DNA from: Sulfuracidifex tepidarius
GTDB taxonomy: Archaea > Thermoproteota > Thermoprotei_A > Sulfolobales > Sulfolobaceae
Direction: 5' to 3'
Length of the DNA: 64,000 bases
NCBI RefSeq assembly: GCF_008326425.1
Contig: NZ_AP018929.1
Coordinates: 1,254,875-1,318,874 of the forward strand
Made by a program: the position numbers and the translations under genes. Below, piece after piece: positions 4,467 through 38,031 of this stretch. Numbering within the stretch: position 1 is the first letter of the stretch; each line of letters starts with the position of its first letter. The notes under the pieces were generated by a model, which worked only from the letters and a program-made list of their open reading frames with translations, ran no database searches and was not told the origin of the DNA.

Positions 4467-4475
4467 AATGAGTTA

Positions 4476-19427: not shown

Positions 19428-19496
19428 CGATTTCTATTTGTGAAAAAACACATTTAAAAACTTTTCTGTTTTTATTTTAGTACGATTACTATCTCA

Positions 19497-20484: not shown

Positions 20485-20497
20485 GACCTCAGGGAAC

Positions 20498-20630
<133 letters not shown>

Positions 20631-21050: not shown

Positions 21051-22145
21051 ATGAGATTTTCTTTAGGTTTAAGCTGGACTGCAACATTCCTTCAATTAGC
21101 TTTAAGGTTAAGTTGGGGAGTTGTTGCAGTAACTTTCGCTTATATTCTTCATATGACTTCGGTGGAAATAGGAACAGTACTCTTCCTTTTTTATGTAGGT
21201 TACGTGAGTAGTTCAATATTATGGGGTATTTTTATTGATAGAGTAGGACCAAAAAATTCAATATTTATTTCAGCGTTGCTTTCAGGAATTTTTATACCAT
21301 TTTTCATATTTGTAAAAAGTATTTACGAGCTTTATTTATTATACTTTATTGAAGGTCTTTTAACAGCAGGACTTTTTCCATCATCAGTAAAAATTGTTTC
21401 CTCACTGGAAAGACCATTAACTCCTTATTTAGCGCTCCTGGAGAGTTCAGCTCCAATAGTTTTACTTCTCTTAGCTATTTTTTCTGGAATTATCTTGATT
21501 TATTGGAAATTTTTTTATATTAGTATATTTATAGGATTAATATTGACGTCTCTTTTATCATTCTTTCTTAATGTTAAAGTTAGTAAACCAAAGAGTGCTA
21601 GAAAAGTTATACTAAATAAAAGGGTAGGTAAGGTCTCAATTATAAGAGCTGGAGAATTATGGGGTACATGGGGGACGTCATCGTGGCTATTCCCCTTTTT
21701 AGTTCTTTACGATAGTGTACCTGAAAGACTTTCTGAAATTTTATTCGTATTATATGCAGTAGGTCAAGTATTTTCTATAATACTTTCTGGGAGACTTTCG
21801 AGGATTATCGAGGATATTAAATTAGTTAAAACCTCATTAATTCTCTTTATTATTTCAATAATTATTGTATCATTTATAAAGAATCCATATTTTCTCATGC
21901 CAATTAGTGTTATTCTAGGAATATCTTCCTTTATGTATAGACCTCCTACAGATTCAATAGTAGTAAAAATAATGGGTAAAGAAAATGCAGGAACTTCTAT
22001 GGGATTCGCTAATGCAGTATCTCAGATAGGATCCATGATAGCGCCTTTATTTGTGGGTATAGTAATATCCATAGGGAGTCCTATGCTTGCAATAGATAGC
22101 TTAATAATTGGTCCTTTATTATCTCTTTTAATAATTTTCATATAA
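21051..22145 (+). CDS. Major facilitator superfamily transporter
   Basis: The 364-residue protein consists of 10-12 hydrophobic helices. LWGIFIDRVGPKNSIF is the MFS loop 2-3 motif (GxxxDRxGxRxxx), and SGRLSRIIEDIKLVK corresponds to its weaker repeat in the second half. It belongs to the DHA-like branch often annotated as sugar or multidrug permease; substrate is unknown. Base composition and codon use are far more AT-rich than the chromosome left of 17 kb or right of 38 kb, in line with acquisition from a low-GC relative. Confidence 0.75.
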   Translation: MRFSLGLSWTATFLQLALRLSWGVVAVTFAYILHMTSVEIGTVLFLFYVGYVSSSILWGIFIDRVGPKNSIFISALLSGIFIPFFIFVKSIYELYLLYFIEGLLTAGLFPSSVKIVSSLERPLTPYLALLESSAPIVLLLLAIFSGIILIYWKFFYISIFIGLILTSLLSFFLNVKVSKPKSARKVILNKRVGKVSIIRAGELWGTWGTSSWLFPFLVLYDSVPERLSEILFVLYAVGQVFSIILSGRLSRIIEDIKLVKTSLILFIISIIIVSFIKNPYFLMPISVILGISSFMYRPPTDSIVVKIMGKENAGTSMGFANAVSQIGSMIAPLFVGIVISIGSPMLAIDSLIIGPLLSLLIIFI

Positions 22146-22176
22146 AAATAATTTTAAGTTTTTAGAATAAAAAAGA

Positions 22177-23595
22177 TTATAACTTATCATTATCCTTACT
22201 ATTTGTTATGTCTTTTAGTGCGTAACTTGGTATTCCTTCATTTCCAGTATATCTTCTCTGTATTTCTTCTAATGGCATTTGTTTAGTTTCTAACGAGAGG
22301 AAATAGTATATTGCTGCAGCAATTATTGCGACAATTATATCGTAAAGCAGAGAATTAGCTACTCCCAGAAATGCGTATAGTGACAGTGCAGGTAAAGCTA
22401 AACCGAATTCGAATAATTTCTCCCAACCTACTGACAATCCCCTTAATTTGGTAGGAAATACTTCTCCTGCTGGAACGTATTGTAAAGTACCTACGAATCC
22501 TACATTTATAAGGAAGAACAAAGAGAACATTGCTACTACTAAAGGAATCGATAGGATACCCATTAAATAGGCTACGTAAAGTACAGCTAAAGGAATTGCG
22601 GAAAGACCGAAACCTAACGTTCCCAAGATTTTTCTTCCTAATTTGTCTGCAGCAAACACTGTAATTAGAACTCCAAAGGTACCTAGAATATCAATACTTA
22701 ACGTACCTAATAAAGACTCAAATGACGAAGCTCCTAAATCCGAAAGAACCTTACTGGAATACACTGAAACAAGGTTAACTGTCAAAGCATATGCAGCACC
22801 TATCCAAAAGATAAAGGCCACTTGTCTAGCATAGGTTCTGCTAAAGAATGCTTTCAAATTTTGTTTGAATGAAGGTTTTTCCTCTTGAATAGCGTCAAAA
22901 TTAACCTCAGGCTCTAAGCCGCACTTCTCTAATCTCTTTACTGCCTCCTCAACTTTCTTCTTATTGCCTACTTCTGCGGCCCATCTTATACTTTCTGGCA
23001 TTTTTCTCCTTAATAATAGAAGTATTATTGGAGGTGCTGCTGCAATGATAAAGTCAATTCTCCATGCAGTTAAAACGCCAACTACTGCTGTTAATCCTAG
23101 ACCTATACCGACAGTAGCTATAGTACCCAACATGAAGAATACCTTCTCCATTGACAGTAGTCTTCCTCTAGTTCCTGCTGGAGCGTATTCTGAGACTAAA
23201 GGTACAGCAGCTGCATAGTCTATTCCTATAAAAGCTCCCAAGAAGAACCTGAATACGAAGAAAGATATACCATCAAAAGACGCTGCGCTCAATAAAGCGA
23301 ATATAGCCATACCAAGAGTATCGTAAATGAACAATTCCTTTCTACCGAATTTATCTGAAAGCAAACCGCCTAGTACTGCTCCTCCTGCAACTCCTACCCA
23401 ATATCCTGCTACAACTATTGCAGTCATTACTGCGCTTAAATGGAATAAAATTGAGACAGCTAATAAAGAAACTGAGGCACCGAATTCATTGAATGCGTCT
23501 GTGAAAGGTCCTAAAGCAGCCAAAACTGTTAGCCTTTTGTGGAAAGATCTGACTTTCGTATTATCTAATATTTCGTAATTTACCTTGTCGCTCAT
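22177..23595 (-). CDS. Sugar-porter-like MFS transporter
   Basis: About 12 membrane helices with several MFS signatures: GGLLSDKFGRKELF (loop 2-3), RFFLGAFIGIDYAAAVPLVSEYAPAGTRG (helix 4-5), and AADKLGRK in the second half. The middle loop ends near PESIRW, which is the PESPRWL motif of sugar porters. Length 472 aa is normal. Substrate could be a sugar, phosphate or an organic acid. It converges on the first MFS gene with a 31-bp gap. Codon use is AT-rich like its neighbours. Confidence 0.75.
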   Translation of the reverse strand: MSDKVNYEILDNTKVRSFHKRLTVLAALGPFTDAFNEFGASVSLLAVSILFHLSAVMTAIVVAGYWVGVAGGAVLGGLLSDKFGRKELFIYDTLGMAIFALLSAASFDGISFFVFRFFLGAFIGIDYAAAVPLVSEYAPAGTRGRLLSMEKVFFMLGTIATVGIGLGLTAVVGVLTAWRIDFIIAAAPPIILLLLRRKMPESIRWAAEVGNKKKVEEAVKRLEKCGLEPEVNFDAIQEEKPSFKQNLKAFFSRTYARQVAFIFWIGAAYALTVNLVSVYSSKVLSDLGASSFESLLGTLSIDILGTFGVLITVFAADKLGRKILGTLGFGLSAIPLAVLYVAYLMGILSIPLVVAMFSLFFLINVGFVGTLQYVPAGEVFPTKLRGLSVGWEKLFEFGLALPALSLYAFLGVANSLLYDIIVAIIAAAIYYFLSLETKQMPLEEIQRRYTGNEGIPSYALKDITNSKDNDKL

Positions 23596-23901
23596 TAAAG
23601 TTCACGGGTTAAGAAATAAGATTTTATCCTTTATATTCGTTCATGAAACAGATTTTAAATGATAAACACTCATAATGTTTAAAATCTTGAACTTATACAA
23701 ATGAATAAAACCTTTTTATATATAATTTGTATACGATTGTTAATATTTTATAAAATGTTCTATAGAATTAAAAAAGACTTTAACTTTATTTATAGATAAT
23801 ATCAGAATTTACACCTTTTAAGTATATTCTTTCACTATTTTTAGTCTGAAACTGATATTTTTCTAATAAGATTTAAAAATCATCAAGTCAAGTTGGTAAC
23901 A

Positions 23902-24603
23902 ATGATTATATTTTCCGATTACGATAGAACTCTGGCAATGAAGGAAGACGGATTTGAAATAAGGGAAGAAGTAGCTGACAGAGTAAACGCCTTTGTCAGA
24001 AACGGGGGAAAATTCTTTGTAGTAACAGGAAGAGAAAAGAAAAATACTGGAGGGATAAGGAGAAAAACAATTTATGAGCTTTCTGGCAAATTGTCTCCAA
24101 CTGGCTGGATTTTGGAAAATGGGGGAATAATAGTCCTTGATAGAGAAATAAATCTGGTTGAAAGAGAATGGATAGATTACATGGATGAGATATCTGAGGA
24201 GCTATATAAGGAAAAAATAGAATTTTCTAAAGGAGAAACTATAATATTTGCAGATAATAGCTATGATAAGAAGGCATTATTAGAAAAGATAGTGAAAAAA
24301 GGGAAAATAGAGTGGAACACAAAAGACGCAATGATTCTCTCATCTAAAATAAATAAAGGAGTTGGAATCGATGAAGTATTTAGGATTTTAGGTAAGGACG
24401 TTAGTATAGGAATAGGAGATGCACAAAACGATATATCATTATTTAGAAAAGTCGATATTAAAGTGGCAGTAAATAACGCTCTTCCTTGCATAAAAGAAAT
24501 TGCAGATATAGTTCTCAATAATTCTGCGGGTTACGGTGTAATTGAATTACTTGACTTAATAGAAGAAAATAAAGTAAAGATTGAAGATAAAATCGTAAAA
24601 TAA
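23902..24603 (+). CDS. HAD-superfamily phosphatase, Cof/SPP type
   Basis: FSDYDRTLA near the N-terminus is the DxDxT nucleophile motif, VVTGRE is motif II, and GIGDAQNDISLFRKVDIKVAVNNA is the motif IV GDxxND followed by the VAVxNA turn. These define a type IIB HAD phosphatase (phosphoglycolate, sucrose- or mannosyl-glycerate-phosphate phosphatases). The ATG at 23902 starts just before the first strand; a TTG at 23893 adds three residues. Substrate is unknown. It shares the AT-rich character of the surrounding block. Confidence 0.75.
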   Translation: MIIFSDYDRTLAMKEDGFEIREEVADRVNAFVRNGGKFFVVTGREKKNTGGIRRKTIYELSGKLSPTGWILENGGIIVLDREINLVEREWIDYMDEISEELYKEKIEFSKGETIIFADNSYDKKALLEKIVKKGKIEWNTKDAMILSSKINKGVGIDEVFRILGKDVSIGIGDAQNDISLFRKVDIKVAVNNALPCIKEIADIVLNNSAGYGVIELLDLIEENKVKIEDKIVK

Positions 24604-25048
24604 TAATACTATAAACATGAGAATAATATATGAATTTACTACAGAATAATATAAATGACCTATAATATAAATCAGTGGTATAAAAATTTAGGATAAGGAA
24701 AATAATAAATTGTTATTTGAACTAGTGTTTACACTAGTGCTTTCGGAAAGTTTATAGCTTTAGACTAAGGAGATGCCACTAAATCATAGTGTAAGAACTT
24801 TTCCAAAATAAGGCATAAGTACTATAGTCTTTAGTTGTTTTCAATTTCTAAATATGCTTTAATAATATTATATGTAAGCTGTAAATCGCCTGATATATCC
24901 GGCAGTATTTCTGCTCCGAGCCTTATACTATTTAAATAATTAGATAAAGATGGAAGCTTAATCATAGAAGAGGAAAAGATTAATAGGTGGCTAAATATAT
25001 TAATTCTAAAATTGGATATCCTAGGTTAGCTGAATTTGGGGAAATGTA
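24604..25048. other. Gene-poor stretch with an 18-bp inverted repeat
   Basis: ACTAGTGT-TT-ACACTAGT lies at 24721-24738. A 44-codon minus-strand frame at 24831-24965 (MIKLPSLSNYLNSIRLGAEI...) looks like a real protein tail but matches nothing I know; it may be a remnant. No other gene is seen. Confidence 0.4.
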
Positions 25049-25375
25049 ATGGGATTTAATATTTTTAAGAATAGGGACGTTAAACTTTATCTCATTCAAC
25101 ACTCCATACAACCGTATTTAGCTCTTTCTTTCATTTTACCGGCTTATGTTTTTCTATTTAGCAAGAACATTATTTTAGTGGGTGTTCTTCTGAGTATTGC
25201 GTACTTGTTAGAACATCTGACAGTAATTTCTGGTTTTTTAACGGATTACATGGTAAATACTCGGCTATATGATTTTATTCTTTCAGTTTTAAGTGGATTA
25301 ATATTTCTTATCTCTTCATTAGTTTATTCAAACTCAGTGAGTTTTATTTTTTTATTGTACGCCGTCCTAGGTTGA
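25049..25375 (+). pseudogene. Truncated MFS transporter, N-terminal third
   Basis: The frame encodes three or four hydrophobic helices (QPYLALSFILPAYVFLF, ILVGVLLSIAYLLEHL, FILSVLSGLIFLISSLVY) and stops abruptly after FLLYAVLG. A full MFS protein would be three to four times longer. The following ATPase frame starts within four bases of the stop. The junction at about 25370 therefore looks like a recombination point between the AT-rich block and the mobile element. Confidence 0.55.
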
Positions 25376-28143
25376 ACGAGATATTCCTTAAGTATTCTGA
25401 TAAATTAAAGAGAAATCAATCAGTAATTGGTAAGCGTCAAAGAGAAGTTTTAGCTAGCAGATTAGAGCAGTATGCGAAAGACAACATCTACTACTTGCAG
25501 CCTTACGTTCTTTCAGATGATAAGAAGAGAATTAAACAGCTAGCGAAAGAGCTCCAACAATTTATTCTAACTAAAAGTAGAAAATTGAGGTTGGAAATAA
25601 GGAAAACTAAGGGCTGGGAAGATAATATCCCCAGGGTTCCAAGGTTTCATTCATTAAAACTCAAGAGATGGCTCTGGATTGACGAGGACAAAATAAGTAA
25701 AGTTGCGGTAATTCCTAATCCATCTGTTATCCCAGTGAACTTCGTAGTTGGAGGAGTGCTCCCAGAACTTCCCCCTAACAGAAATGGGTTTGAAATAGGA
25801 AAAACGGTACCTTCTAGCAAACCATATATGTTAGAGTTAGAGGACCTTTACCGGCACGGCTATATTATCGGAGGGACTGGAGCTGGGAAGACCACAACCA
25901 TAATCTCTCTGATAACATCAATAAGGAAGGCATACAATAATGCAATAATAATGATATTCGACCCTCACGGCGATATGGCAGAAGAAGTAGCCTCCTATTT
26001 CGCCGATAACGAGAATTTAATATACTTCCACCCAGTTGAGGCTCCTCTCTCAATCAATCCCCTAGCTTTGCCCAATTTGCCTAATAAAGAACAAGCGTTG
26101 TTGTTAGGTTTCAGCAACGTTATGGAGATATTCGAGAAATTATTCGGCCTTAAGGACACTGCAGTGTATGTTAAGTACATCATTCAGGTTTCAATGCAAT
26201 TGCTCTACTCAAAAACTCCAGAACCCACGTTTAGGGACCTTTACAGGATCATCTACAAGCTGAGAACAGGGGAAATAGATTTGCCGGTAGACGACCCTAC
26301 GTGGGAAAGTAAGCTAGAAATGTTCCAGAACATGCAGGAGCAAAGTTTCTTATCCGCAATCTCTAGGTTGGAAATGCTAGGGACAAATCCATTATTACTT
26401 AAGATATTCAGTAAGACAAAGATAGACGATAATGAGTTATTCAAGCCTGGAAATATTATAGTAATAAACGCATCGAAAGCAGCTGTAGGAAATGACGCTT
26501 CATTTCTAATATTAGCTGGATGGATCTTTAAGACGTGGTATTATGCGTTGGCTAGAGCTGCATTGAATATGGAAAGGATCCCAATCATAGCATTTATGGA
26601 CGAGTTCCAAAATATCGCTTCCCTTAGCGTGATAGACGATATCTTAAGTGAAGCTAGAAAATATGCAATGCATATCATAATGGCGCACCAGCATACTGGA
26701 CAGTTAGATATGTCACTAATTAAATCAATAATGAGTAATACGGGAGTTAAGATGTTAATGAAGGAACAAGGTGATGACGCCAAAGCATTTGCAAAGATAT
26801 TCCCAGATTTCGGCTCCGAACTAGAAAAGACGCTGCCAGGTTTAGGAGTAGGCGAAGCAGTAGTAATTATTACACCGAGGAAAGAAGGGGATAAGGTAGT
26901 TCCAGTAAGGGTTAAGATAAACTACGTCCCCACTAAAAAGGATCCGGAGAAGCTGAAGAAGGTAATAGAGAGAATGCAGAAATACGCGACTGGAGAAGTG
27001 CCGAAGAATGAAGACATAGAGAGTATAGTAAATCCAATTATGAAATACATAGAGAAACCTCAAGTACTGGAACAGCTTGTCCTCTACCACATCTTCAAGA
27101 ACGGGAAGAAGATGTATTTAGTAGACTTACTAAAGGAATTAGGCCTGGATAGGGATAAGGTAAATGACGTTGTAAATAAGTTAGAGAAGTTGGGTTATAT
27201 TGATGTTGAAAAGGAGGGCAATAAGAAAGTGTTATACTATGGTAAAGGGTTATTCGGAAATGTGAAGGCGGCCGCTCCTTCGCAAGAAGGACGCAAACTA
27301 GCTATGAAAGTGATGTTACGCTATATGAAGCAGGGATATTACGTAGCTCCAGCTAAGCAGTCACAAGAGTTAAGCTCTAGGCCAGATTTAGTAGCAATCC
27401 CTATCGATAAAAGTTCACTAAGGCCACTTTATGACAGGGCTATCGCTATTGAGATAGAGAGCTGCAATGAATTGAGTGTACACCCAGAGCAGGTAGTGCG
27501 TAACTGGCGCAAAGAAAGTGTGAAAGATTTCACCGAAGTACACAGCTGGACCTATGCTGAGTGTTTCGATAAACTGCAGCAGTTATATAACCAACTTTCT
27601 GACGAAGAGAAGAAGAAAGTAAAGATATTCGCATTAAAAGTTAGAGAGAAGACAGTACAGAAAGTAGAAGAAAAAACTGAAGAGACACAGAAGGAATCAC
27701 AGTCAACTGGGGAGTTTACGTCAAAAGGACCAGAGCAGAGCGAAACTAAAGCTGTAACTAGTGCTACTAATAACAATAATATCAAAGGACCAGAGACGTT
27801 AACCGGGGGGTTAACAGCGAATGAGAATAAGCAGCAAACTATAACTCAGACTAATGCTGCAACAGATAATACTATAGCATCTAACGCCCAGAGCAATGAC
27901 GGTAAACTGGGGAGTTTACAAGGAGATGGAGCGATAGTTCTATCGCTCCAGGGTAGGATAATTAGGATAAATAAAACTAAAAGTACGATAGAAATCGATG
28001 GAGAAGAATATAAAGTTCCGTCTTTTGAACTAAGGGCTATAATAAATAGAAAAGATAGTATAATAGCAGTTAGCAAGAAGGAAAAGAAAATTATAGTAGC
28101 TTACGATAACGGAGTTACCTCGGAAATAGGCATTATTTCTTAA
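25372..28143 (+). CDS. TraD/HerA-like DNA-transfer ATPase with winged-helix and PD-(D/E)XK-like domains
   Basis: The 923-residue protein has Walker A GTGAGKTT at about residue 167, IMIFDPHGD at about 195, Walker B FMDEFQNIA at about 410 and AHQHTGQL near 437. These are features of VirD4/TraD/HerA motor ATPases that move DNA. A winged helix follows at about 560-620 (KKMYLVDLLKELGLDRDKV). RPDLVAI (about 670) and AIAIEIES (about 690) then form a PD-(D/E)XK-like nuclease pattern. A low-complexity tail (about 763-855) precedes a small beta domain. The start is an inferred TTG at the junction with the MFS fragment, so the N-terminus may be lost. It probably serves conjugation, partition or packaging. 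Confidence 0.75.
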   Translation: MNEIFLKYSDKLKRNQSVIGKRQREVLASRLEQYAKDNIYYLQPYVLSDDKKRIKQLAKELQQFILTKSRKLRLEIRKTKGWEDNIPRVPRFHSLKLKRWLWIDEDKISKVAVIPNPSVIPVNFVVGGVLPELPPNRNGFEIGKTVPSSKPYMLELEDLYRHGYIIGGTGAGKTTTIISLITSIRKAYNNAIIMIFDPHGDMAEEVASYFADNENLIYFHPVEAPLSINPLALPNLPNKEQALLLGFSNVMEIFEKLFGLKDTAVYVKYIIQVSMQLLYSKTPEPTFRDLYRIIYKLRTGEIDLPVDDPTWESKLEMFQNMQEQSFLSAISRLEMLGTNPLLLKIFSKTKIDDNELFKPGNIIVINASKAAVGNDASFLILAGWIFKTWYYALARAALNMERIPIIAFMDEFQNIASLSVIDDILSEARKYAMHIIMAHQHTGQLDMSLIKSIMSNTGVKMLMKEQGDDAKAFAKIFPDFGSELEKTLPGLGVGEAVVIITPRKEGDKVVPVRVKINYVPTKKDPEKLKKVIERMQKYATGEVPKNEDIESIVNPIMKYIEKPQVLEQLVLYHIFKNGKKMYLVDLLKELGLDRDKVNDVVNKLEKLGYIDVEKEGNKKVLYYGKGLFGNVKAAAPSQEGRKLAMKVMLRYMKQGYYVAPAKQSQELSSRPDLVAIPIDKSSLRPLYDRAIAIEIESCNELSVHPEQVVRNWRKESVKDFTEVHSWTYAECFDKLQQLYNQLSDEEKKKVKIFALKVREKTVQKVEEKTEETQKESQSTGEFTSKGPEQSETKAVTSATNNNNIKGPETLTGGLTANENKQQTITQTNAATDNTIASNAQSNDGKLGSLQGDGAIVLSLQGRIIRINKTKSTIEIDGEEYKVPSFELRAIINRKDSIIAVSKKEKKIIVAYDNGVTSEIGIIS
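27703..27718. repeat. Element palindrome, copy 2 (imperfect)
   Basis: TCAACT-GGGG-AGTTTA lies inside the low-complexity tail of the ATPase gene, where it is read as STGEF. One arm base differs from the consensus. Confidence 0.6.
27798..27815. repeat. Variant palindrome GTTAACC-GGGG-GGTTAAC
   Basis: This perfect 7-bp-arm inverted repeat keeps the GGGG centre of the dispersed element palindrome but has different arms. It sits between copies 2 and 3, also inside the ATPase tail coding sequence. Confidence 0.55.
27903..27918. repeat. Element palindrome, copy 3 (perfect)
   Basis: TAAACT-GGGG-AGTTTA is in the ATPase tail, read as KLGSL. Ten bases downstream, 27928-27949 is a second inverted repeat, GGAGCGATA-GTTC-TATCGCTCC. 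Confidence 0.7.
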
Positions 28144-28648
28144 ACATCTCTACATGATTGGGCAGGATAAAATAAGTAGGCCTCTTTTTGTCTGGGTCTT
28201 TAACTTTGATAACTTTCTTTTCCCTGACTAATTTGGTTAATGCAAAACTGAATACTGCTACTGCAGCTTCCTTCTGTTCCTCGTAAAATTTTGCTAACTT
28301 CTCATCATAGCCGAAAACTAGATCTTGTAGTTTGGATCTCCTTATAGGCTTCCTGTAAGTAGTTACATACTCATCAATAAGCTTAGGAATTAATCTCTTT
28401 ATCTTAATATGAATAGGTTCCTCTTCATCCTCAACAGTTAAGTATAATACGTTTTCATCTTTCTTCTCACGCTTAGATTTCCTTTCATTTTTCTTAATAT
28501 TCTCTGATACACTTTGATCAGAATTGCCATTTACTGTAGAAGACTGAGAACTATTACTATTTATCATTTTCCTTTCATTTTCATTGCTAATTACTACTTT
28601 ATTTTCATTTGTATTAGGAGGAGTTGAAGAGTATTGATCTGCAGACAT
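28133..28648 (-). CDS. Element protein with disordered N-terminus and winged-helix-like C-terminus
   Basis: I do not recognise a family. The first 70 residues are Asn/Ser/Lys/Glu-rich and likely disordered. The rest (IHIKIKRLIPKLIDEYVTTYRKPIRRSKLQDLVF onward) is helical and ends with a KVIKVKDPDKKRPTYFIL hairpin, resembling a winged helix. It converges with the ATPase gene, with overlapping stops. Its start faces the 11-bp iterons about 200 bp away, so a replication initiator, partition adaptor or autoregulator binding those iterons is plausible but unproven. Confidence 0.55.
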   Translation of the reverse strand: MSADQYSSTPPNTNENKVVISNENERKMINSNSSQSSTVNGNSDQSVSENIKKNERKSKREKKDENVLYLTVEDEEEPIHIKIKRLIPKLIDEYVTTYRKPIRRSKLQDLVFGYDEKLAKFYEEQKEAAVAVFSFALTKLVREKKVIKVKDPDKKRPTYFILPNHVEMFKK

Positions 28649-28844
28649 TTTCCTTCATCAATATGCTTATTTAAAAAGCAAAATCATTGTTTCTCTATAT
28701 ATAGTAAGCTATATTATTAATTTGTAATGTTTCTGTATTCATAGTAAATAATATCTTTTAGAAACAATATGTATGACAAAACATTACTACTTCTCTATAT
28801 AGAGTAATAACTATGAATAAGCTATAATAAGTATGCATACATAA

Positions 28845-28910
28845 TAGGCGTAAAATAAGCGTGATATAAGTGTAAAATAGGCGTTGTATAAGCGAATAAT
28901 AGGCGTTTAA
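28845..28910. repeat. Six tandem 11-bp iterons
   Basis: Six units follow each other without gaps, each starting TA(A/G)G(C/T)G: TAGGCGTAAAA, TAAGCGTGATA, TAAGTGTAAAA, TAGGCGTTGTA, TAAGCGAATAA, TAGGCGTTTAA. They are followed by the palindrome GCGTACGC (28911-28918) and flanked on the left by AT-rich sequence. An 11-bp period puts all sites on one helix face, as in plasmid origins and partition sites. Confidence 0.8.
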
Positions 28911-28918
28911 GCGTACGC

Positions 28919-30276
28919 ATTTCATCTCTATACCCCCAAATCCCCCCTTTTTCTCTAACTCTCTTTCTAAATTTCTATACCCCCTAATTTCGGGCCCAAG
29001 GCCCGCCTACTCTTTTGCTTTTAACTACAAACTCTTTTCTTACTCTTTCTAACTCTGCTTTGCTTTTTCTGCTTCCACTTTTTGCTTTACAAATCTTTTC
29101 TTACTCTATCTGCTAACTGCTTATCTGCTTTTACTCTTTCTTCTAACTATTATTCTCTGCTGCTTACTCTTTTCTAACTAACAATTATGCTTCTAAGCAT
29201 CTTTTATTACCTCTAACCTCTTTCTCTCTTTACTATCTAACAATTCTCTCTCTTCACTGCTTCTTTCTAACAAACTACTACTCTCTAACTAACATTTTTG
29301 CTTTGCAAATCTTACTATACTCTCTTCTTCTCTCTAACTCACTTTTTGCTTTTATTATACCCTCAAACTATGTTTCTTTTGCAGCTCTTCTAACTGCTAA
29401 CTGCTTATTATTCTACTTACTCTCTCTTTTCTGCAGCTTTGCTTACTATTATCTCTGCTTTGCTTCTTTCTTTAAGCAGCTCCAAGATCCTTTTTACCTT
29501 ACTAACTATTTTTACTATAACTACACTTTCCCTCCTCTAACTTACAATTCTCTTTATAAATAGTTCTAAACTTAACTTACAAATTTACAACTGCGCATAA
29601 ACTAATTCCCTCTCTGCCCTTAGCCCTTAACTTAATTCTCTTTTTCAAGAATTTACATAGAACATTATTTTATAAAAATCTATAAGGGCTAACGCCCTTA
29701 ACCCAACCTAATCCCTAAATTACATTATATCTAGCTCCGGAGTTTTCTAAATACTAAACCTATTAACTCTGTTCTGCTTTTAGGGCCTACTCAGGGTCCT
29801 ATAGCCTTAGCTGCTATTTACCAGGCCTAAAAACCTAAGCTGCTTACAAGATCCTATATCCTCTGCTTAACCTAACTACCAGATCCATTATCTAACCTAA
29901 CTACTAATTCTGGACCTCTGACATTGCTGCAACTTATTCTGACTCCTTAAACCTAAAAACAACTGCTTAACCTCAAAACTAAAGGGGGGCCTGGTGAAGG
30001 AACAAAAAAGGGCCCAAGGTAGTGATGAAGTGCATAATTCTCTTTGTAAAGTAGTTCTCTATGAAGATAATAATATATTGTTATTTTGCATTTAGTGTGC
30101 AAAAAAGTAGAAAAATAGTTTATCTCTTTTAGTGTGAAATAAAAGATAGTTAGTTTATCTTAAAGTATTGAAAATAATGAAATAAAAGGACTGTTATATT
30201 ATTTGTATTGTGATAATAAAAGGATAGAGAAATAAACAGAAAAGTTTTTAAATCTGTTTTTACAGAAGTAGAAATC
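28919..30276. other. 1.36 kb gene-free, pyrimidine-rich stretch
   Basis: From 28,920 to about 29,560 the plus strand is strongly C+T-rich, built from recurring words such as CTCTTTCTAACT and CTGCTTTGCTTTT. Further right it becomes AT-rich with scattered GGGCCCAAGG motifs (28990 and 30002) and a short hairpin CGGGC-CCAAG-GCCCG at 28989-29003. Frames in the tract are low-complexity and I do not accept them as genes. It abuts the iterons on the left and the sRNA B promoter on the right, so it could be part of an origin region. Confidence 0.6.
30234..30253 (+). promoter_or_regulatory. Promoter of box C/D sRNA B, shared with sRNA C
   Basis: The 20 bases here, containing the TATA-like TTTTTAAAT, are identical to the minus-strand bases 19471-19452 before sRNA C. 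A second identical block, TAGAAATCGGGG, leads into both RNA stems. The TATA centre is 28 bp from the sRNA 5' stem. Confidence 0.75.
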
Positions 30277-30342
30277 GGGGCGGGAGTGATGAAGGTTCCA
30301 GGGCTGACCCATGATGAAAGGCTTGGAGCCTGAACCCGTCCC
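30277..30342 (+). ncRNA. Box C/D sRNA B
   Basis: Box C GTGATGA is at 30286-30292 and an 11-nt guide at 30293-30303. Box D' CTGA is at 30304-30307, box C' ATGATGA at 30311-30317, a 12-nt guide at 30318-30329 and box D CTGA at 30330-30333. An 8-bp stem (GGGGCGGG with CCCGTCCC) closes the ends. Spacings match sRNAs A and C, and the three-base D'-C' linker is the same length in all three. The guides are complementary to CCCTGGAACCT and GCTCCAAGCCTT; I do not recognise their targets. Confidence 0.85.
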
Positions 30343-30403
30343 TCAATATTACCTTTCTCTTAAGGCTAAATAAGCTTTTCTTCACTGAATTTTGAAAATT
30401 GTA

Positions 30404-30419
30404 TAAACTCCCCAGTTTA
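30404..30419. repeat. Element palindrome, copy 4 (perfect)
   Basis: TAAACT-CCCC-AGTTTA, in non-coding sequence 62 bp after sRNA B; the orientation of the G-run is opposite to copy 3. Confidence 0.7.
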
Positions 30420-30722
30420 CTGAGAGAAATTCAACACTAGTAATAACTACTACTAAGAGTTTTGAGAAGTGAAAAGAAAGCGTGGAAAGTTTTAGGCCCA
30501 GGGTGAAAAGAAGTAAACAAGGCCTTCTCATCCGCACTAAAATTTTTCTAAAAAATACAAAAAATTCAATTAGTCTCAAAAAAGTGTAAGTTAGTCTGTG
30601 TAAAAATGTGTAAAATTGAAAGAAGTGTAAAAGTGTTTGTTTTTGTTTTTTATTTTTTGCAAATTTGTAGTAGTAGTATATATTAGCAAGTCTTTACAAA
30701 GAGAAATTAGAATTTATTTCAA

Positions 30723-30737
30723 TAAACGGGGAGTTTA
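30723..30737. repeat. Element palindrome, copy 5 (one base short)
   Basis: TAAAC-GGGG-AGTTTA lacks one arm base. It lies 41 bp left of copy 6 (centre to centre about 55 bp). Confidence 0.6.
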
Positions 30738-30777
30738 TTCAGAAAATTAGTTGCACTTTAGAAAGATTTTTTGAAAT

Positions 30778-30793
30778 TAAACTGGGGAGTTTA
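30778..30793. repeat. Element palindrome, copy 6 (perfect)
   Basis: TAAACT-GGGG-AGTTTA, just past the 3' end of the gene ending at 30861. Confidence 0.7.
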
Positions 30794-30860
30794 CGTTACT
30801 TTGAAAATTTATTACAAAACTGAGAAAATAGGTTGATAGTATAAGCTTATTGTTATTCTC

Positions 30861-31388
30861 TCACTCAAGAAGTGATTTGTCCAGCCTAATCTTTAAGATT
30901 TGGCCATTTCTTAGTCTATACGCAAAGATTATTTTATGTAACGTGAAATCCTTTAAGATCTCTTCTACCCTGGACAATGTGATATGTTTATTATTTACTT
31001 TTGCCTTATGATATATCTGTTCTGCTATAGTCTCATCTGGTGAATTTTCAATATAGCCTTTAGTTTCATAAAGTACTCTCAGAACCTCTACTTCATCTTC
31101 ATCTAGCTTTCTTCCCAACAATCTTTCGGCCTTCTCCTTAACTTTCTCAAAACTACCCTGGAGCTGCAATATTTTCTTAGCAGTCTCTGACAACGAATAA
31201 ACGTTAATGTTGTTTAGCTTCTTTACTGTTATCCAGCCCTTTATTATGTATCTCTTTACCCTGGGATAAATCTCCTTACTCTCTGTCTCAATAGCTGCAG
31301 CCAAGTCTTTTGCAAGCTTAGGACCAGCTAATAATTCCTTAAATATTGTTATAATGTTCTTAGATTTAAAGGGAAGAAGCGTAGTCAT
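30861..31388 (-). CDS. Winged-helix-containing element protein
   Basis: I do not know a named family. The N-terminal 75 residues read as a winged helix: NIITIFKELLAGPKLAKDLAAAIETESKEIYPRVKRYIIKGWITVKKLNNINVYSLSETAKKIL, with helix-turn-helix and a wing. A charged helical middle (EKVKEKAERLLGRKLDEDEVEVLRVLYE) is followed by a second helix-rich domain. GAGGTGAG precedes the ATG by four bases. It forms an operon with the gene at 31393, separated only by palindrome copy 7 within that gene's 3' end. It is probably a regulator of the element. Confidence 0.6.
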   Translation of the reverse strand: MTTLLPFKSKNIITIFKELLAGPKLAKDLAAAIETESKEIYPRVKRYIIKGWITVKKLNNINVYSLSETAKKILQLQGSFEKVKEKAERLLGRKLDEDEVEVLRVLYETKGYIENSPDETIAEQIYHKAKVNNKHITLSRVEEILKDFTLHKIIFAYRLRNGQILKIRLDKSLLE

Positions 31389-31392
31389 TGTC

Positions 31393-32028
31393 TCACCTCC
31401 TTAAACTCCCCAGTTTACTCGAGAAATCGTAGAGTGAGAGCTGCCTACCCTGGGGCTTAGATATTATCCTTAGCAGTTCTGTTAACATCTTTTGCAGCTT
31501 TTTGGGATCCTTTCTATCTTCGTTACGACCAAATAAGTACCCTGTAACGTCTAATCCGTTAAAATTATTAACTAAAGCTTCTTTCAGCTCCCTTTTACTG
31601 CTGACACCGAGATACCATTTATCTCCTTTTATAACAGTAAGGAATTCTGAAAGACTATAATCTCTATACTTCTCATCAGAAGCATATCCATAAAATACCC
31701 CGAAACCCTGGCTCTCTAACTCTTCTCCTATTTCGATATCGTTTAGAGAATGTACCGGAACTACGAATACTATGTTACGCAATAGATCCAGCTTAACTAT
31801 CTTTGCAGCAACTTTCGGCTTAATATAATCAGGCCATAAGGCTATCCTAACATAATTATGTAATTTCACTAACTTCTTTAAATAAGGGATATAGCCGAGC
31901 TTGCTACTTAACAATAATTTCTTGTCATCATAGAATCCGGGGTATGGGAAGATAATTTCTCCTACATATTCACTATAATATCCTGTAATGAAATCTGCAA
32001 GAGGCCCTCTACCTATACCGATTATCAT
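31393..32028 (-). CDS. Unknown element protein, possible tRNA-guanine-transglycosylase-like fold
   Basis: Visible are a glycine-rich start (MIIGIGRGPLADF), the segment LWPDYIKPKVAAKIVKLDLLRNIVFVVPVHS, and GFGVFYGYASDEKYRDYSLSEFL. The WPD.IKP stretch and alternating strands vaguely recall the Tgt/DpdA-like barrel proteins carried by some viruses, but key catalytic residues cannot be placed, so this is a guess. ATG 32028 is preferred over GTG 32037 because GAGGTGAG lies at the right distance. The last residues (SKLGSLRR) are encoded by palindrome copy 7. Confidence 0.5.
   Translation of the reverse strand: MIIGIGRGPLADFITGYYSEYVGEIIFPYPGFYDDKKLLLSSKLGYIPYLKKLVKLHNYVRIALWPDYIKPKVAAKIVKLDLLRNIVFVVPVHSLNDIEIGEELESQGFGVFYGYASDEKYRDYSLSEFLTVIKGDKWYLGVSSKRELKEALVNNFNGLDVTGYLFGRNEDRKDPKKLQKMLTELLRIISKPQGRQLSLYDFSSKLGSLRR
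31402..31417. repeat. Element palindrome, copy 7 (perfect)
   Basis: TAAACT-CCCC-AGTTTA, within the last codons of the 31393 gene and 14 bp upstream of the next gene's start at 31388. Confidence 0.7.
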
Positions 32029-32042
32029 CAGCCTCACCTCAT

Positions 32043-32058
32043 TAAACTCCCCAGTTTA
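32043..32058. repeat. Element palindrome, copy 8 (perfect)
   Basis: TAAACT-CCCC-AGTTTA, 15 bp upstream of the ATG at 32028. Copies 7 and 8 thus stand at the same distance before two consecutive genes, next to identical GAGGTGAG SD sequences. Confidence 0.7.
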
Positions 32059-32143
32059 CCACTCTCTCTTGAGAGAAATTCCATCTGAAGAAGAATGAAG
32101 TAAAGAATTAGTATAATGAAAATAATGAAAAAGAAGAGGGATC

Positions 32144-32419
32144 TCATTGTTGAACCCTGATCTCCACTAAGGCTTCCAATAATTTTCTTCCTTTTTCTGT
32201 TATGTTTACTATTTTTCTTACGGATCCATGAAGACCTTCAGTGTACGTTACTTCTATTAATCCCAATTGCTGCATCTGTGGGAGAACAGTAAAATAGAGA
32301 GCGCTAGGGCTGATCCCAGTTAGTGTTTGTAATTCTGACAGTGATAACGGTTTTCCATATATGTTCTCTAATACCTTTGTTACGTGTTCGCATCTTAATG
32401 GATTAGAACGCTCTTTCAT
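32144..32419 (-). CDS. Winged-helix transcriptional regulator
   Basis: The 91-residue protein is a PadR/MarR-like winged helix: NPLRCEHVTKVLENIYGKPLSLSELQTLTGISPSALYFTVLPQMQQLGLIEV, a wing, and a terminal helix GRKLLEALVEI. It begins with the motif SNPLRCEH, shared with the divergent gene at 32511 (SNPLRCEHLYRIL), so the two are paralogues. The 91-bp interval between them carries the inverted repeat at 32432-32451. Likely a repressor of the element's operons. Confidence 0.7.
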   Translation of the reverse strand: MKERSNPLRCEHVTKVLENIYGKPLSLSELQTLTGISPSALYFTVLPQMQQLGLIEVTYTEGLHGSVRKIVNITEKGRKLLEALVEIRVQQ

Positions 32420-32431
32420 TTACTTTCTACT

Positions 32432-32455
32432 TTAGAAATTGCGATTTCTAACTTA
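32432..32455. promoter_or_regulatory. Operator-like inverted repeat between divergent regulators
   Basis: TTAGAAAT-TGCG-ATTTCTAA (32432-32451) has perfect 8-bp arms. The adjoining TTTCTAACTTA (32445-32455) recurs at 33099-33109 in front of the long small-gene operon, so one regulator may bind both. Confidence 0.6.
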
Positions 32456-32510
32456 TAAGTCTTATGTCTTAACTAATAATTTATAAGGTACACAAAAAAA
32501 TATCTTAATT

Positions 32511-32816
32511 ATGGCTTACAAATTAGAAGACAAGAGAACTATGCCTCGAGACTTATCGAATCCTCTCAGATGTGAACATCTATACAGAATTCTTACTACA
32601 TTAGAAGAACCAGTAACTATTTCAGAATTATGGGAAAAGGCCAAAATAAGCCCTGGAATATATTACAATACAATAGAAAAGAATTTATTGCAATTAGATC
32701 TAATAAAATATGAAGAAAAAGGGAGAAGTACAGTAGTTATTCTTACGGATAAAGGAAGAAAATTACTAGAAGTTCTGAAGGATATAGGTTTTTCTAAGAT
32801 CTCAGAAATACGTTAA
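32511..32816 (+). CDS. Winged-helix transcriptional regulator, paralogue of the 32144 gene
   Basis: The 101-residue protein carries LSNPLRCEHLYRILTTLEEPVTISELWEKAKISPGIYYNTIEKNLLQLDLIKYEEKGRSTVVILTDKGRKLLEVL, a typical winged helix with terminal helix. It shares the opening motif and fold with the divergently transcribed gene. TTTATAA near 32481-32487 lies about 27 bp before the ATG, so translation is probably leaderless. Its stop overlaps the stop of the small convergent gene at 32813-32983. Confidence 0.7.
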   Translation: MAYKLEDKRTMPRDLSNPLRCEHLYRILTTLEEPVTISELWEKAKISPGIYYNTIEKNLLQLDLIKYEEKGRSTVVILTDKGRKLLEVLKDIGFSKISEIR

Positions 32817-32983
32817 TCCTTTTTCTGCTCTTCAGAAACATAGAATCTTAAATCCAATTCTTTTTCTATCTTTTCTAATTCATCTTCTAGTAAGTTATAC
32901 GATCTCTCATCAAGCTTAGTGACTAACCTTTCTCTTAATTTCAATATGACATATTTTGCTCCAAGATAGTAGTCACGATCCAT
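32813..32983 (-). CDS. Small charged element protein (56 aa)
   Basis: The protein begins MDRDYYLGAKYVILKLRERL and continues with a Glu/Lys-rich helix (LLEDELEKIEKELDLRF). It is short but has balanced codon use, an ATG start and a stop that overlaps the convergent regulator's stop by four bases. No family is recognised; a helical DNA- or protein-binding adaptor is possible. No SD was identified. Confidence 0.55.
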   Translation of the reverse strand: MDRDYYLGAKYVILKLRERLVTKLDERSYNLLEDELEKIEKELDLRFYVSEEQKKD

Positions 32984-33098
32984 ATTATATCTGTTATTTT
33001 AAAAAAAGAGAGAGTTAGATGAAACAGATCTATGCTGAATTCTATATATATTCTATTTTCTATGTTAGATGTTAGAAAACAAAAAGCTTAAATATTAC

Positions 33099-33109
33099 TT
33101 TCTAACTTA
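33099..33109 (+). promoter_or_regulatory. Promoter region and putative operator of the small-gene operon
   Basis: TTTCTAACTTA repeats the motif seen at 32445-32455, and is part of the imperfect inverted repeat ACTTTCTAA-CTTAGAAGT. It overlaps the region just after TTAAATATT (33089-33097), a TATA-like box about 38 bp before the first ATG at 33132. Confidence 0.5.
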
Positions 33110-33131
33110 GAAGTTAATAGGTAATAGAAAA

Positions 33132-33461
33132 ATGAGCTTAACCGAAATGGTTTCAAAGGCAAACTCCCCAGTTGAAGGGAAGGAAAAAGATTTAGTTTTT
33201 TTAATTTCCATGTTAGATAAGGAAGATAAGATAGAGTTTGTAAGGACTTTTGAAAGTGATTTCTGGTCCCTAGTCGAGAACAAGATGTTAACAAAAACTG
33301 CAGTGTATAAGTTCCTTAGTGGCTATGCTCCATCTGATGAAAGAATACTAAGGATTGTGGAGGCTGACGGAGAAGCTAGGAAGTGGCTTATAGAAAGAGT
33401 GAAAGAGAAGGCAAAGAAGGCACTACAAATCATTAGCGAAATGGAGGCTGAGGAGGAATGA
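33132..33461 (+). CDS. First gene of small-gene operon, helical DNA-binding-like protein
   Basis: No family recognised. After a variable N-terminus (coded partly by palindrome copy 9), residues 20-85 are helical: DLVFLISMLDKEDKIEFVRTFES, then SLVENKMLTKTAVYKFLSGYAPSDERILRIVEADGEARKW. The TKTAVYKFLSGYAPSDERI segment looks like a helix-turn-helix recognition region; the same residues are typical of small lambda-repressor-like proteins. The end is Glu/Lys-rich. Its stop overlaps the next start (ATGA), beginning a run of translationally coupled genes. Confidence 0.55.
   Translation: MSLTEMVSKANSPVEGKEKDLVFLISMLDKEDKIEFVRTFESDFWSLVENKMLTKTAVYKFLSGYAPSDERILRIVEADGEARKWLIERVKEKAKKALQIISEMEAEEE
33160..33175. 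repeat. Element palindrome, copy 9 (imperfect)
   Basis: CAAACT-CCCC-AGTTGA, inside codons 10-15 of the first operon gene; the outermost pair still matches as C/G-type arms are partly preserved. Confidence 0.5.
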
Positions 33462-33646
33462 CGACTGCTAAAGTATATTATAAACTGGAAGTGTTAGCAC
33501 CCTGTGAAGAGCTTGCAAAAGAGATTAACGGAGCATTGGAAGGACAAATCTTCGATTATGAAACTATGCAACTGAAAAAATTGGAAATTGAAGAACTATG
33601 CCCAGAATGTATCGTAATTGTTAAAAAGGTAGGTGGGGAGGAATGA
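33458..33646 (+). CDS. Small operon protein (62 aa), cysteine-containing
   Basis: The sequence TTAKVYYKLEVLAPCEELAKEINGALEG predicts a beta strand followed by a helix, then a second strand pair with ELCPECIVIVKKVG. Three cysteines (one CxxC) could bind a metal. No known family. The start overlaps the previous stop by four bases and the end overlaps the next start, so it is translated from the same message. Confidence 0.55.
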   Translation: MTTAKVYYKLEVLAPCEELAKEINGALEGQIFDYETMQLKKLEIEELCPECIVIVKKVGGEE

Positions 33647-33900
33647 GGATCCCTGGCAGGAAAATTGAGGAGTTCTGTTACACTGATAAATATTATAATG
33701 AATATGCAGCGTTTTGCTATGATGCGAGAGTGGATGTCAATGATGTCGAGTTCAGTGATAAAGATTTAGAAGAAATTGTGGATCAGTATGAGGAAGAAAT
33801 TATAGAAATTTTGAGAGATAAAGGCTACAGAATTTCGGAAAGTAAAAGCAAGAAGATTACCTTACAAAATTATAAAAAATTGGAGGATTGGTTGAAATGA
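33643..33900 (+). CDS. Small acidic operon protein (85 aa)
   Basis: The protein is highly acidic in the middle (VDVNDVEFSDKDLEEIVDQYEEEIIEILRDKGYRI) with aromatic-rich N-terminus (CYTDKYYNEYAAFCYDARV). No recognised family. The acidic helix could mimic DNA, as some small plasmid and virus proteins do, but that is speculation. ATGA-type overlaps occur at both ends. Confidence 0.55.
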   Translation: MRIPGRKIEEFCYTDKYYNEYAAFCYDARVDVNDVEFSDKDLEEIVDQYEEEIIEILRDKGYRISESKSKKITLQNYKKLEDWLK

Positions 33901-34370
33901 CTGAGCAAACTACTTCTACTTTGCAACAATACTTAGAGAAAGCTTATGCTCTAGCCTATAAGGCACAGAGATTAATATCAGTAGACAGAGCTGCTTACAG
34001 AATTTTTAAAGAAATTAAGGAATTGATAGGAAGCTTAGAAGAATACATTATTAATAATATTGAATACGACAGCGTTGAGGTAGGCAATAAACTGAAGTAT
34101 TACGAAAAGCAGTTAGCTCTTATTGAGGAGAAGAAGGATAGTTTACTACTTAGGTTCTTCAGGCAGATGAGTGAACACCCCAGTTTACCGCAAAATCTAG
34201 ATGAAGAGAAGTACATTATCAACTGGATGGCTTCTAAGGGTTATGAATTCTGCAGCTATGACAAACAAGAAGCATTGCAGAAGTTAGATGAAGTTAAGGA
34301 AGGGGGAGTAATAGAGGAAGAGGATCCGCTTACTGGACTAGATATTTGGTGTTTGAAGGTGAGAAAATGA
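33897..34370 (+). CDS. Helical operon protein (157 aa)
   Basis: No known family. The N-terminal 100 residues are mostly helical (LQQYLEKAYALAYKAQRLISVDRAAYRIFKEIKELIGSLEEYI and a coiled segment KYYEKQLALIEEKKDSLLLRFFRQM). The C-terminal part KYIINWMASKGYEFCSYDKQEALQKLDEVKEGG has mixed structure. The ATG at 33897 overlaps the previous stop; the longer frame from 33888 starts with TTG and is less likely. Palindrome copy 10 is inside the gene (HPSLPQ). Confidence 0.55.
   Translation: MTEQTTSTLQQYLEKAYALAYKAQRLISVDRAAYRIFKEIKELIGSLEEYIINNIEYDSVEVGNKLKYYEKQLALIEEKKDSLLLRFFRQMSEHPSLPQNLDEEKYIINWMASKGYEFCSYDKQEALQKLDEVKEGGVIEEEDPLTGLDIWCLKVRK
34172..34187. repeat. Element palindrome, copy 10 (imperfect)
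   Basis: TGAACA-CCCC-AGTTTA, inside the 33897 gene; the right arm is intact and the left arm has diverged at two positions. Confidence 0.5.
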
Positions 34371-34588
34371 TAGATGAAAGGACCCTGGAGCTAATTTCAA
34401 ACTGTTGGGTTAAGTTCAGGCATGTAATGCATGTTAGCCAATTATGTGAAGACTGCAAACATGTCATGTGTGTATTTTTACTAAAAATAGCAGAGGACGA
34501 TAAGGAGTTTGCAGACGATTTAGATCTGAAAGAAGACGTAGAGTACTGCGAAAGACTGGAAAAAGTTACGGTTCCAGGTGTTATTTAA
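34367..34588 (+). CDS. Small Cys-rich operon protein (73 aa)
   Basis: The protein contains SNCWVKFRHVMHVSQLCEDCKHVMCVFLLKI, with a CxxCxxxxC arrangement plus two histidines that could bind zinc. The C-terminal part is acidic with another Cys. No known family. The ATG at 34367 overlaps the preceding stop (ATGA); the frame from 34346 would overlap the previous gene more deeply and starts with a weaker codon. Confidence 0.55.
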   Translation: MIDERTLELISNCWVKFRHVMHVSQLCEDCKHVMCVFLLKIAEDDKEFADDLDLKEDVEYCERLEKVTVPGVI

Positions 34589-34926
34589 TGAGAAGAGCCT
34601 TAAGGATAGTTCATTTTGACAAAGATCATAAAGCTAAATATCTAGAGCTTAGCTTTGACAGTGCTGCTATTAACGATAAGGGATACGCGGATGACGGATC
34701 GTTACTAATATCTATCTCTCAGGGAGAGCAGAGGATTGCATTTCAACTAAGCGTATCAGAAGCTGCATTGCTAAAAGAGAGATTAGATTACATTCTAGCA
34801 CTCTTAGCTAAGCAATACATAGAAATTGATGAAAAAGCAGCAAAGGAAAGACAGCAAAAACAAGTCAAAAAGGATCAGAAAAAGGAAGAGTACTTAGATG
34901 AAGAGGTTGAGGAGGAAGAAGGATGA
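34588..34926 (+). CDS. Operon protein with beta-sheet core and charged tail (112 aa)
   Basis: The first 60 residues alternate strands ([57 protein letters not shown]), reminiscent of a small ssDNA-binding or PC4-like sheet with a terminal helix. The last 30 residues are Lys/Gln/Glu-rich and end in an acidic run. No firm family. An acidic C-terminal tail after a sheet domain is common in ssDNA-binding proteins, which makes that reading attractive but unproven. Confidence 0.55.
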
Positions 34927-35129
34927 GGGTAATAACATTCAAAGTTGATGAAGAACTATTGCAAAAACTCGACTTATACTGCATTAATAATAATCTAGAT
35001 AGGAGTGAAGCGATTAGGGATGCTATAAAACTTTACTTAAGCTGTGTGCATCATAAGGGCAGAGTTTACAGACTAAATTCTATCGGAGAGAATTATCAGA
35101 ATAGGGAAATTAGGGTGCAGGAGCTATGA
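34923..35129 (+). CDS. Ribbon-helix-helix protein
   Basis: [39 protein letters not shown] is a textbook ribbon-helix-helix: strand, helix A, turn and helix B with the RSEAIRDAI signature of CopG/NikR-like regulators. The 29 residues after it are basic and probably extended. It overlaps both neighbours by four bases. It is a likely operon regulator or plasmid copy-control protein. Confidence 0.75.
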
Positions 35130-35263
35130 AGAAGAGCACACTACTAATGCTGCTTCAAAATATTTATGAAGATGTTGATTACTGCAGCTGTTTCGCTGCA
35201 AAGAAAAAACTAGAGTGGTTAATCAAGAAACTTCAGGAGGAGGATATTGAGAATGACAGTTAA
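35126..35263 (+). CDS. Very small operon protein (45 aa)
   Basis: The frame [20 protein letters not shown] continues [25 protein letters not shown] and stops. The ATG overlaps the preceding stop (ATGA), and its own end overlaps the next gene's ATG at 35253. This seamless coupling is the reason for accepting so short a gene. It is helical with two cysteines; no family recognised. Confidence 0.5.
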
Positions 35264-35546
35264 TCAGATAATAGAAGAAAACAGAGAGCTGCAGTTACAA
35301 CTATCTAAAGCAATAAACACTATTACAAAGCTCGAAAACAGAATTGCAGCGCTGCAAAAGAAGATAGAAGCCTTGCAGAAAGAGAATGAAAAACTAAAAG
35401 ATGAAAACAAAAAGCTTCAGAAGCAAAATAATATCTTAATGAGAGCTATAGAGATTGCACTGCAAATTCATAACGCTGAAGCACAATACAAACATCTCAG
35501 CTTAGTTCTGCAGAAAATCAAAGAAACTGGGGAGTTTAAGGGGTGA
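35253..35546 (+). CDS. Coiled-coil operon protein (97 aa)
   Basis: Nearly the whole protein is a heptad coiled coil (IIEENRELQLQLSKAINTITKLENRIAALQKKIEALQKENEKLKDENKKLQKQ), followed by a hydrophobic-amphipathic helix. No catalytic motif is seen. ATG 35253 is preferred over TTG 35247. The last codons (ETGEFKG) come from palindrome copy 11. A dimeric scaffold or membrane-independent adaptor is likely. Confidence 0.6.
   Translation: MTVNQIIEENRELQLQLSKAINTITKLENRIAALQKKIEALQKENEKLKDENKKLQKQNNILMRAIEIALQIHNAEAQYKHLSLVLQKIKETGEFKG
35524..35539. repeat. Element palindrome, copy 11 (one mismatch)
   Basis: GAAACT-GGGG-AGTTTA, in the final codons of the coiled-coil gene and 14 bp upstream of the last operon gene's GTG start, a spacing like copies 7 and 8. 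Confidence 0.6.
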
Positions 35547-35552
35547 TTTCTT

Positions 35553-35834
35553 GTGGAATTGCAACAATTATTAATTCCGAAAGTGACTGTTTCTAAAATG
35601 AGGAAGAAGAACGGCTACATATATTACGTCTATATCCCACAGTCCTATACGGAATATATACAATATAAAAAGTGGAATATAATTGCAGTACTAAACGGTA
35701 AGGAAATTCCTCTAGGTCCGAGGAGTCCATTTAAACACGGAAATAATCTAATCGTTACTCTTCCGCTAGCCTACAAGGATTTATGGGAGTCATATTTAGG
35801 TAAAGAAATAGACCTAATCTTTTTGAGGATCTAA
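35553..35834 (+). CDS. Last gene of the small-gene operon (93 aa)
   Basis: The N-terminal KVTVSKMRKKNGYIYYVYIPQSYTEYIQYKKWNIIAVLNGKEIPLG predicts an all-beta small domain similar to AbrB-like or barrel DNA-binding folds, followed by NLIVTLPLAYKDLWESYLG. GTG start with GGTGAT SD nine bases before. The 3' end overlaps the convergent integrase gene by 21 bases. Role unknown. Confidence 0.6.
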   Translation: MELQQLLIPKVTVSKMRKKNGYIYYVYIPQSYTEYIQYKKWNIIAVLNGKEIPLGPRSPFKHGNNLIVTLPLAYKDLWESYLGKEIDLIFLRI

Positions 35835-37079: not shown

Positions 37080-37192
37080 AATCTCACATTCTATTATTAA
37101 ATGGTGAGGGTGTTGCAAAAATATCCTTCGCTGTTGCAAATCCCTTATATCTATAGAGAACGTAACTCTCTTTCAATTTAAAGTAAAATTAA

Positions 37193-37237
<45 letters not shown>

Positions 37238-37759: not shown

Positions 37760-38031
<272 letters not shown>

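Follow-up and report, generated by a model that had tools for sequence, protein, structure and literature searches.

A helically phased repeat array beside the conserved box of Sulfolobales conjugative plasmids, a candidate docking site of an archaeal transfer origin

What function could a gap-free run of six short, exactly phased repeats serve in the non-coding DNA of a 2.56-Mb Sulfolobales chromosome? The window analyzed here, a stretch of 64,000 nucleotides from Sulfuracidifex tepidarius, carries such an array at 28845–28918 on the forward strand, made up of six 11-bp units (28845–28910) and a G+C-rich end, GCGTACGC (28911–28918). The initial annotation had described phased, gap-free 11-bp iterons next to a short palindrome, with AT-rich DNA to the left, and had proposed a replication origin or partition site. 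The iterons and the AT-rich flank were borne out: the units start at 28845, 28856, 28867, 28878, 28889, and 28900, a step of exactly 11 bp without gaps; Tandem Repeats Finder detected the array independently; it is the window maximum of lag-11 self-similarity; and first-order Markov simulations of the window, 200 in all, never came close to six phased TARGYG words (maximum run, 2). The proposed consensus, TARGCGTNNWA, is exact in four of the six units, with unit 3 reading TAAGTGT and unit 5 TAAGCGA. The palindrome is present but was rejected as a conserved element; because relatives carry differing sequences at the same place (GCGTACGG, GCACCGC, GATACGGC, and GGCACGG), GCGTACGC is better read as a variant of an end unit rich in G+C. 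A second match in the same genome (C1:1685868) is partial: it has two units only, lacks the adjoining box described below, and apparently lies inside a coding start.

The element that carries the array, whose identity the initial annotation had missed, is a Sulfolobales conjugative plasmid (CP) reduced to a remnant. It extends from 18186 to 37235 between 36-bp att repeats that differ at one position (18186–18221 and 37200–37235, both on the forward strand), and its genes stand in the order of Sulfolobus CPs: a TraG/VirD4-like coupling ATPase (25372–28143, forward strand), a small gene on the opposite strand, a long non-coding stretch with the section B box, section C genes, and a pNOB8-type tyrosine integrase (35814–37139, reverse strand). 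Over the part that could be matched, its TraG shares 60–87% identity with the TraG proteins of pARN3, pYN01, and pAH1; it lacks about 110–117 N-terminal residues present in intact relatives. A complete section A (TrbE and the mating genes) is absent between 18.2 and 25.4 kb of the window, where section A and the TraG N-terminus are replaced by transporter and other genes; since the mating-pore genes and the TraG N-terminus are missing, the element is probably inactive. As the initial annotation had stated, no Rep, prim-pol, or MCM gene was matched among the element genes scanned. A second CP remnant in the same genome (L076, G000:C1:2106000–2125900) retains a complete section A; residues 1–757 of its TraG, which match the window copy at 97% identity across 639 residues, are joined to an integrase fragment, and the cassette described below is missing, so that the two remnants are roughly complementary. 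To either side of the window element we noted a 93-bp tandem duplication (17373–17567) in the Thr/Ser-rich end of a 520-aa ORF (16129–17691), an end that looks like a surface-protein stalk, and a region (37276–37963) whose short ORFs and tRNA-like att fragments resemble those at about 1684800–1685450 of G000:C1 (L006); they adjoin tRNA genes at both genome sites, which suggests leftovers of another integrated element.

When the DNA left of the box was extracted from the window and 16 plasmids, and then from further chromosomal copies, every CP examined had an array at exactly this spot, abutting the conserved box (TTTCATCTCTATACCCCC, 28920–28937, forward strand). The array lies inside "section B," published as the putative replication origin of Sulfolobus CPs, in which TCTATACCCCC has already been described (PMC4390865). 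The window copy has the same locus downstream of TraG and the same box as section B of pNOB8/pARN/pKEF9/pSOG/pAH1/pTC, but sits on an integrated remnant. The array sequences themselves fall in about eleven classes, for which the letters A–K are our own labels. Class A (TARGCGT, 11-bp steps) is common to the window, pAH1, and two chromosomal relatives (G030 and G028), and the remaining CPs have other repeat sequences at exactly the same place, so that the absence from related elements, which the initial annotation had named as refuting its own proposal, is not what we observe. Nearly all arrays are phased at 10, 11, or 21 bp, that is, with the DNA helix. Autocorrelation against dinucleotide shuffles in 16 representatives gave lags of 11/22/33 for class A, 10/20/30 for pMGB1, and 21 for most others (typically z 3–7), with no further lag enriched across classes; two further classes (G001 and G030b) were recognized by visual inspection and alignment. 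In the 14 kb around its TraG homologue, the Thermococcus plasmid pT33-3, for which conjugation is proven, shows no phased array, a point against the transfer reading given below. Chromosomal loci with an array and no TraG were considered as a sign of a non-transfer role and set aside: that of G028:C1 is a degraded remnant keeping the last TraG codons, that of G019 is degraded, and that of G003 stops at a contig edge. One further locus (L127, G029:C1:564000–576000) encodes at 5500–6350 a 123-aa relative of the small protein with a phased-looking array, without TraG, together with a purine/pyrimidine-skewed tract and an adjoining pXZ1-type integrase-like gene (36% identity); it may represent a small plasmid that integrated together with a docking cassette of its own.

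To the right of the box, a second box copy (TTTCTATACCCCC, 28972–28984, forward strand) has its TATACC core 45–47 bp past that of the first box in most CPs, and it is followed by a short hairpin (CGGGCCCAAGGCCCG, 28991–29005) whose stem is maintained by compensatory changes in several relatives (CGGGC/GCCCG, TCTGGC/GCCAGA, and TTTGCC/GGCAAA); some relatives lack the hairpin. A non-coding, pyrimidine-rich tract poor in G (4–11% G; 28920–29920, forward strand) begins at the box; with about 4–12% G it is also found in other CPs, over 0.65–1 kb, and in the small plasmids pRN1 (900–2075) and pXZ1 (1900–2700), always beginning at the box, and its composition seems to be conserved rather than its sequence. 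The tract bears on the published hypothesis that the array represents the iterons of a replication origin and the small gene encodes an unrecognized CP initiator. Section B has been presented as the putative origin, CPs without RepA need some other initiator (PMC4390865), and the small gene and the array are universal in the CPs that we checked; however, the GC-skew extremum of CPs shifts away once the G-poor tract is masked, and we therefore rejected genome-wide GC skew as origin evidence. As to wider occurrence, viral contigs gave two exact box matches; these, and every exact match in GTDB contigs with one exception, appear to be unrelated and due to chance, and the viral collections yielded no relatives of the small protein or of the tract.

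The small gene (28133–28648, reverse strand), which overlaps TraG tail to tail by 11 bp, encodes 171 residues with a disordered basic N-terminus and a domain that we term winged helix-turn-helix (wHTH)-like on the basis of its sequence pattern and of weak PDB profile matches to the helix-wing of MarR (E 0.41 and 0.68); it matches no Pfam or NCBIfam family. Its single-sequence structure model is poor (pLDDT 40), and the models made without an alignment (pLDDT 40 and 59) were too poor for a structure search. The initial annotation had named this protein as a candidate binder of the array, and we retain it as the best candidate, its relatives switching class together with the array. The C-terminal domain of TraG (27904–28143, forward strand), all-beta in a low-confidence model, is co-inherited with both. 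Because every CP has the array upstream of its small gene, one could envision that it is simply the autoregulatory operator of that gene. Yet it abuts the box, beyond the promoter-like sequence found close to the start of the gene, and it is present on pRN1 and pXZ1, which have no small gene, and we regard an operator as very improbable.

The comparison of 24 elements covered the TraG core, the TraG C-terminal domain, the small protein, the array, and the 300 bp to the right of the box. Similarity between arrays was correlated with that of the small protein (Mantel r 0.68; 0.54 deduplicated) and of the TraG C-terminal domain (0.83; 0.60 deduplicated), not with that of the TraG core (−0.06; −0.05 deduplicated), and, once near-duplicates were removed, not with that of the 300 bp beyond the box (0.09); the elements being related, permutation p-values are no more than guides. 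Because the array class follows the small protein and the TraG C-terminal domain rather than the TraG core, the three are exchanged as one cassette, and natural swaps point the same way. The cassette was clearly different in 23 of 25 pairs whose TraG cores are at least 80% identical, including pHGQ25/pRT2 (core 99%, small protein 36%, array 10%), the window and pARN3 (core 92%, small protein 17%), and two copies within one genome, G030a/G030b (core 92%, small protein 19%); in the two exceptions, pING1/pKEF9 share their cassette and pSOG2/G021 are intermediate. Identical or near-identical cassettes were found on cores only 33–57% identical (pARN3, pARN4, pKEF9, pING1, pSOG1, and HS-7), and pARN3 and pKEF9 share 100% of both small protein and array on cores 39% identical, as pNOB8 and pB12E5 share 96% and 85%, respectively, on cores 37% identical. 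G030a has an array 98% identical to that of the window and a protein 78% identical, so exchange can happen within a class as well.

The edges of the cassette lie in the TraG linker and at the box, the latter seen in pHVE14 as compared to pARN3. At the left edge is a dispersed 16-bp palindrome, TAAACTGGGGAGTTTA (27903–27918), which encodes GKLGSL in the TraG linker. This palindrome recurs in the window at 27706, 27903, 30404, 30779, 31402, 32043, and 35524, as well as in L009, L010, L011, and others; most CPs examined have roughly 5–12 copies, inside and outside genes, and pTC has none. Within the TraG linker its translation reads GKLGSL/TGEF, and one pRN1 copy, at 765, lies beside the first array of that plasmid. 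It is possibly a recombination site. The parts of the cassette are adjacent, so their co-inheritance alone does not prove mutual contact, and genetic linkage could explain it, with recombination having its edges in the TraG linker and the box; TAAACTGGGGAGTTTA and the conserved box could both promote exchange, with the array diverging by drift and being swapped as a neutral passenger. Against this, many unrelated sequences have kept the phasing, and particular classes turn up again on small plasmids that are unrelated; we see only a remote chance that neutral hitch-hiking is the whole explanation. Among our observations, only the copies on pRN1 and pXZ1 escape the linkage argument.

These copies came to light when a DNA search with section B matched pRN1, a non-conjugative, RepA-type plasmid of 5350 bp with neither TraG nor the small gene. 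Its three array-plus-box units all lie on the same strand; their boxes are at 913, 1078, and 1686, and their arrays are of class A (z 8.7 to the window array), class D (z 16), and class G (z 6.2). The plasmid pXZ1, also non-conjugative and without the small gene, likewise has three units, at 1908, 2102, and 2236: one of class D (z 15.9), one with 10-bp phasing that matched no known CP class, and one of class F (z 10.3). Array matches of z 6–16, as found for the assigned units, were reached by none of 300 shuffles; the boxes score 24–29 bits in pRN1 against a null maximum of 14.4 (500 trials) and 17.9–18.6 bits in pXZ1 against a null maximum of 16.5. No array-plus-box unit was found in pHEN7, pSSVx, or pDL10, of which pSSVx spreads inside virions. 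A search with the small protein matched pRN2, which has a homologue of the gene and a box of 5.3 bits that is within the null and not significant. The lack of units in pSSVx agrees with a role in transfer; their lack in pHEN7 and pDL10, the pRN2 box, and the unmatched pXZ1 array count against it. Several class-specific sites without the cognate protein are what we would expect of a hitch-hiker plasmid, and the presence of units of multiple classes on pRN1 and pXZ1, in our analysis the decisive hint, has the pattern of staphylococcal oriT mimics. In the pWBG749 family, five oriT subtypes have a specificity set by SmpO and do not track the conjugation genes; mimics of each are found on non-conjugative plasmids (PMC8136818). 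The latter two features recur here, the mimics as units on plasmids that lack transfer genes and the incongruence of array classes with the core transfer genes in the Mantel tests and natural swaps. The present system differs in being archaeal, in having a wHTH-like protein in the place of SmpO and no recognizable relaxase, and in including the tail of the coupling ATPase in the cassette.

The small plasmids also bear on the two roles first proposed. The minimal replicon of pRN1 has been mapped to about 2101–5197 by two laboratories (PMC4234260; PMC3869888); all three pRN1 units (about 820–1700) lie outside it and are therefore dispensable for the replication of that plasmid. One plasmid, moreover, would have no need of three origins of differing specificity, and the exchanged cassette takes in the tail of TraG. 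Taken with the dependence of the GC skew on the G-poor tract, these points leave the replication-origin reading less well supported, and we consider it unlikely. As a partition site, the array would be a centromere and the small protein an adaptor of the ParR or TubR kind. The parC locus of R1 and tubC consist of contiguous 11–12-bp repeats cooperatively bound by a small protein (ParR and TubR, respectively), and 11-bp phased repeats with a wHTH-like binder resemble them; class diversity would in addition supply compatibility. However, in all intact CPs the small gene adjoins a convergent gene, that of TraG, so that the partner NTPase expected in the same operon is lacking; pNOB8 and pYN01 have separate ParB/ParA-type genes; and pRN1 and pXZ1 carry three arrays each with no gene for the protein. 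Finally, the stability region of pRN1 lies around orf80 and upstream, and its arrays lie downstream (PMC4234260). A partition site is thus quite unlikely. That part of the initial proposal which saw a cis-acting site of a plasmid-type element is very probably right, but transfer fits the evidence better than replication or partition.

We thus favor, with a probability of roughly 0.6, a reading in which the array serves Sulfolobales CPs as an oriT-like docking site on the DNA and gives their transfer origin its specificity. Under this reading, the small protein would bind one unit per helical turn and coat the array on one face of the DNA; the TraG C-terminal domain, on its flexible linker, would recognize the resulting protein-DNA filament, by which the coupling ATPase would select the DNA of its own plasmid. 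The strand would then be opened or processed nearby, at the two copies of the box and at the hairpin, and the first DNA to be unwound or exported may be the G-poor tract. As one exchangeable cassette, the tail of TraG, the small protein, and the array would together set specificity, and small plasmids holding copies of several classes would be mobilizable by different CPs. A comparable arrangement is known from the F plasmid, in which TraM is bound at phased sbm sites near oriT and is recognized by the C-terminal tail of TraD; a different DNA-binding fold is expected here. Hfr-like transfer out of an integrated Sulfolobus plasmid requires traG, and the authors of that study suggest that it starts from a plasmid origin (PMC9899855). 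No relaxase has been identified for archaeal conjugation according to published papers, no oriT for it has been reported in the literature that we searched, and, as a point against the transfer reading, we found no report of pRN1 or pXZ1 mobilization in the accessible literature.

In the section B literature that we searched, we did not find the phased array, its classes, their co-inheritance with the TraG tail and the small protein, or a role in transfer, although an earlier description is possible. We judge it an evenly balanced question whether archaeal conjugation has here its first recognizable transfer origin, a docking module that works without a relaxase and is composed of a coupling-ATPase tail, a small wHTH-like protein, a helically phased array, and the box. 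Plasmids would exchange this module to alter their mobilization specificity, and small multicopy plasmids such as pRN1 would copy it in several classes so that different CPs carry them. How archaeal CPs choose and launch their DNA would become a question for the bench, given a defined cis site, a likely binder, and the matching part of the ATPase. If the reading is true, a region long annotated as a replication origin would be reassigned, and non-coding DNA of pRN1, a plasmid that serves archaeal vectors, would be explained as a set of hitch-hiking sites. Vectors equipped with such sites would then become testable for conjugal delivery into Sulfolobales.
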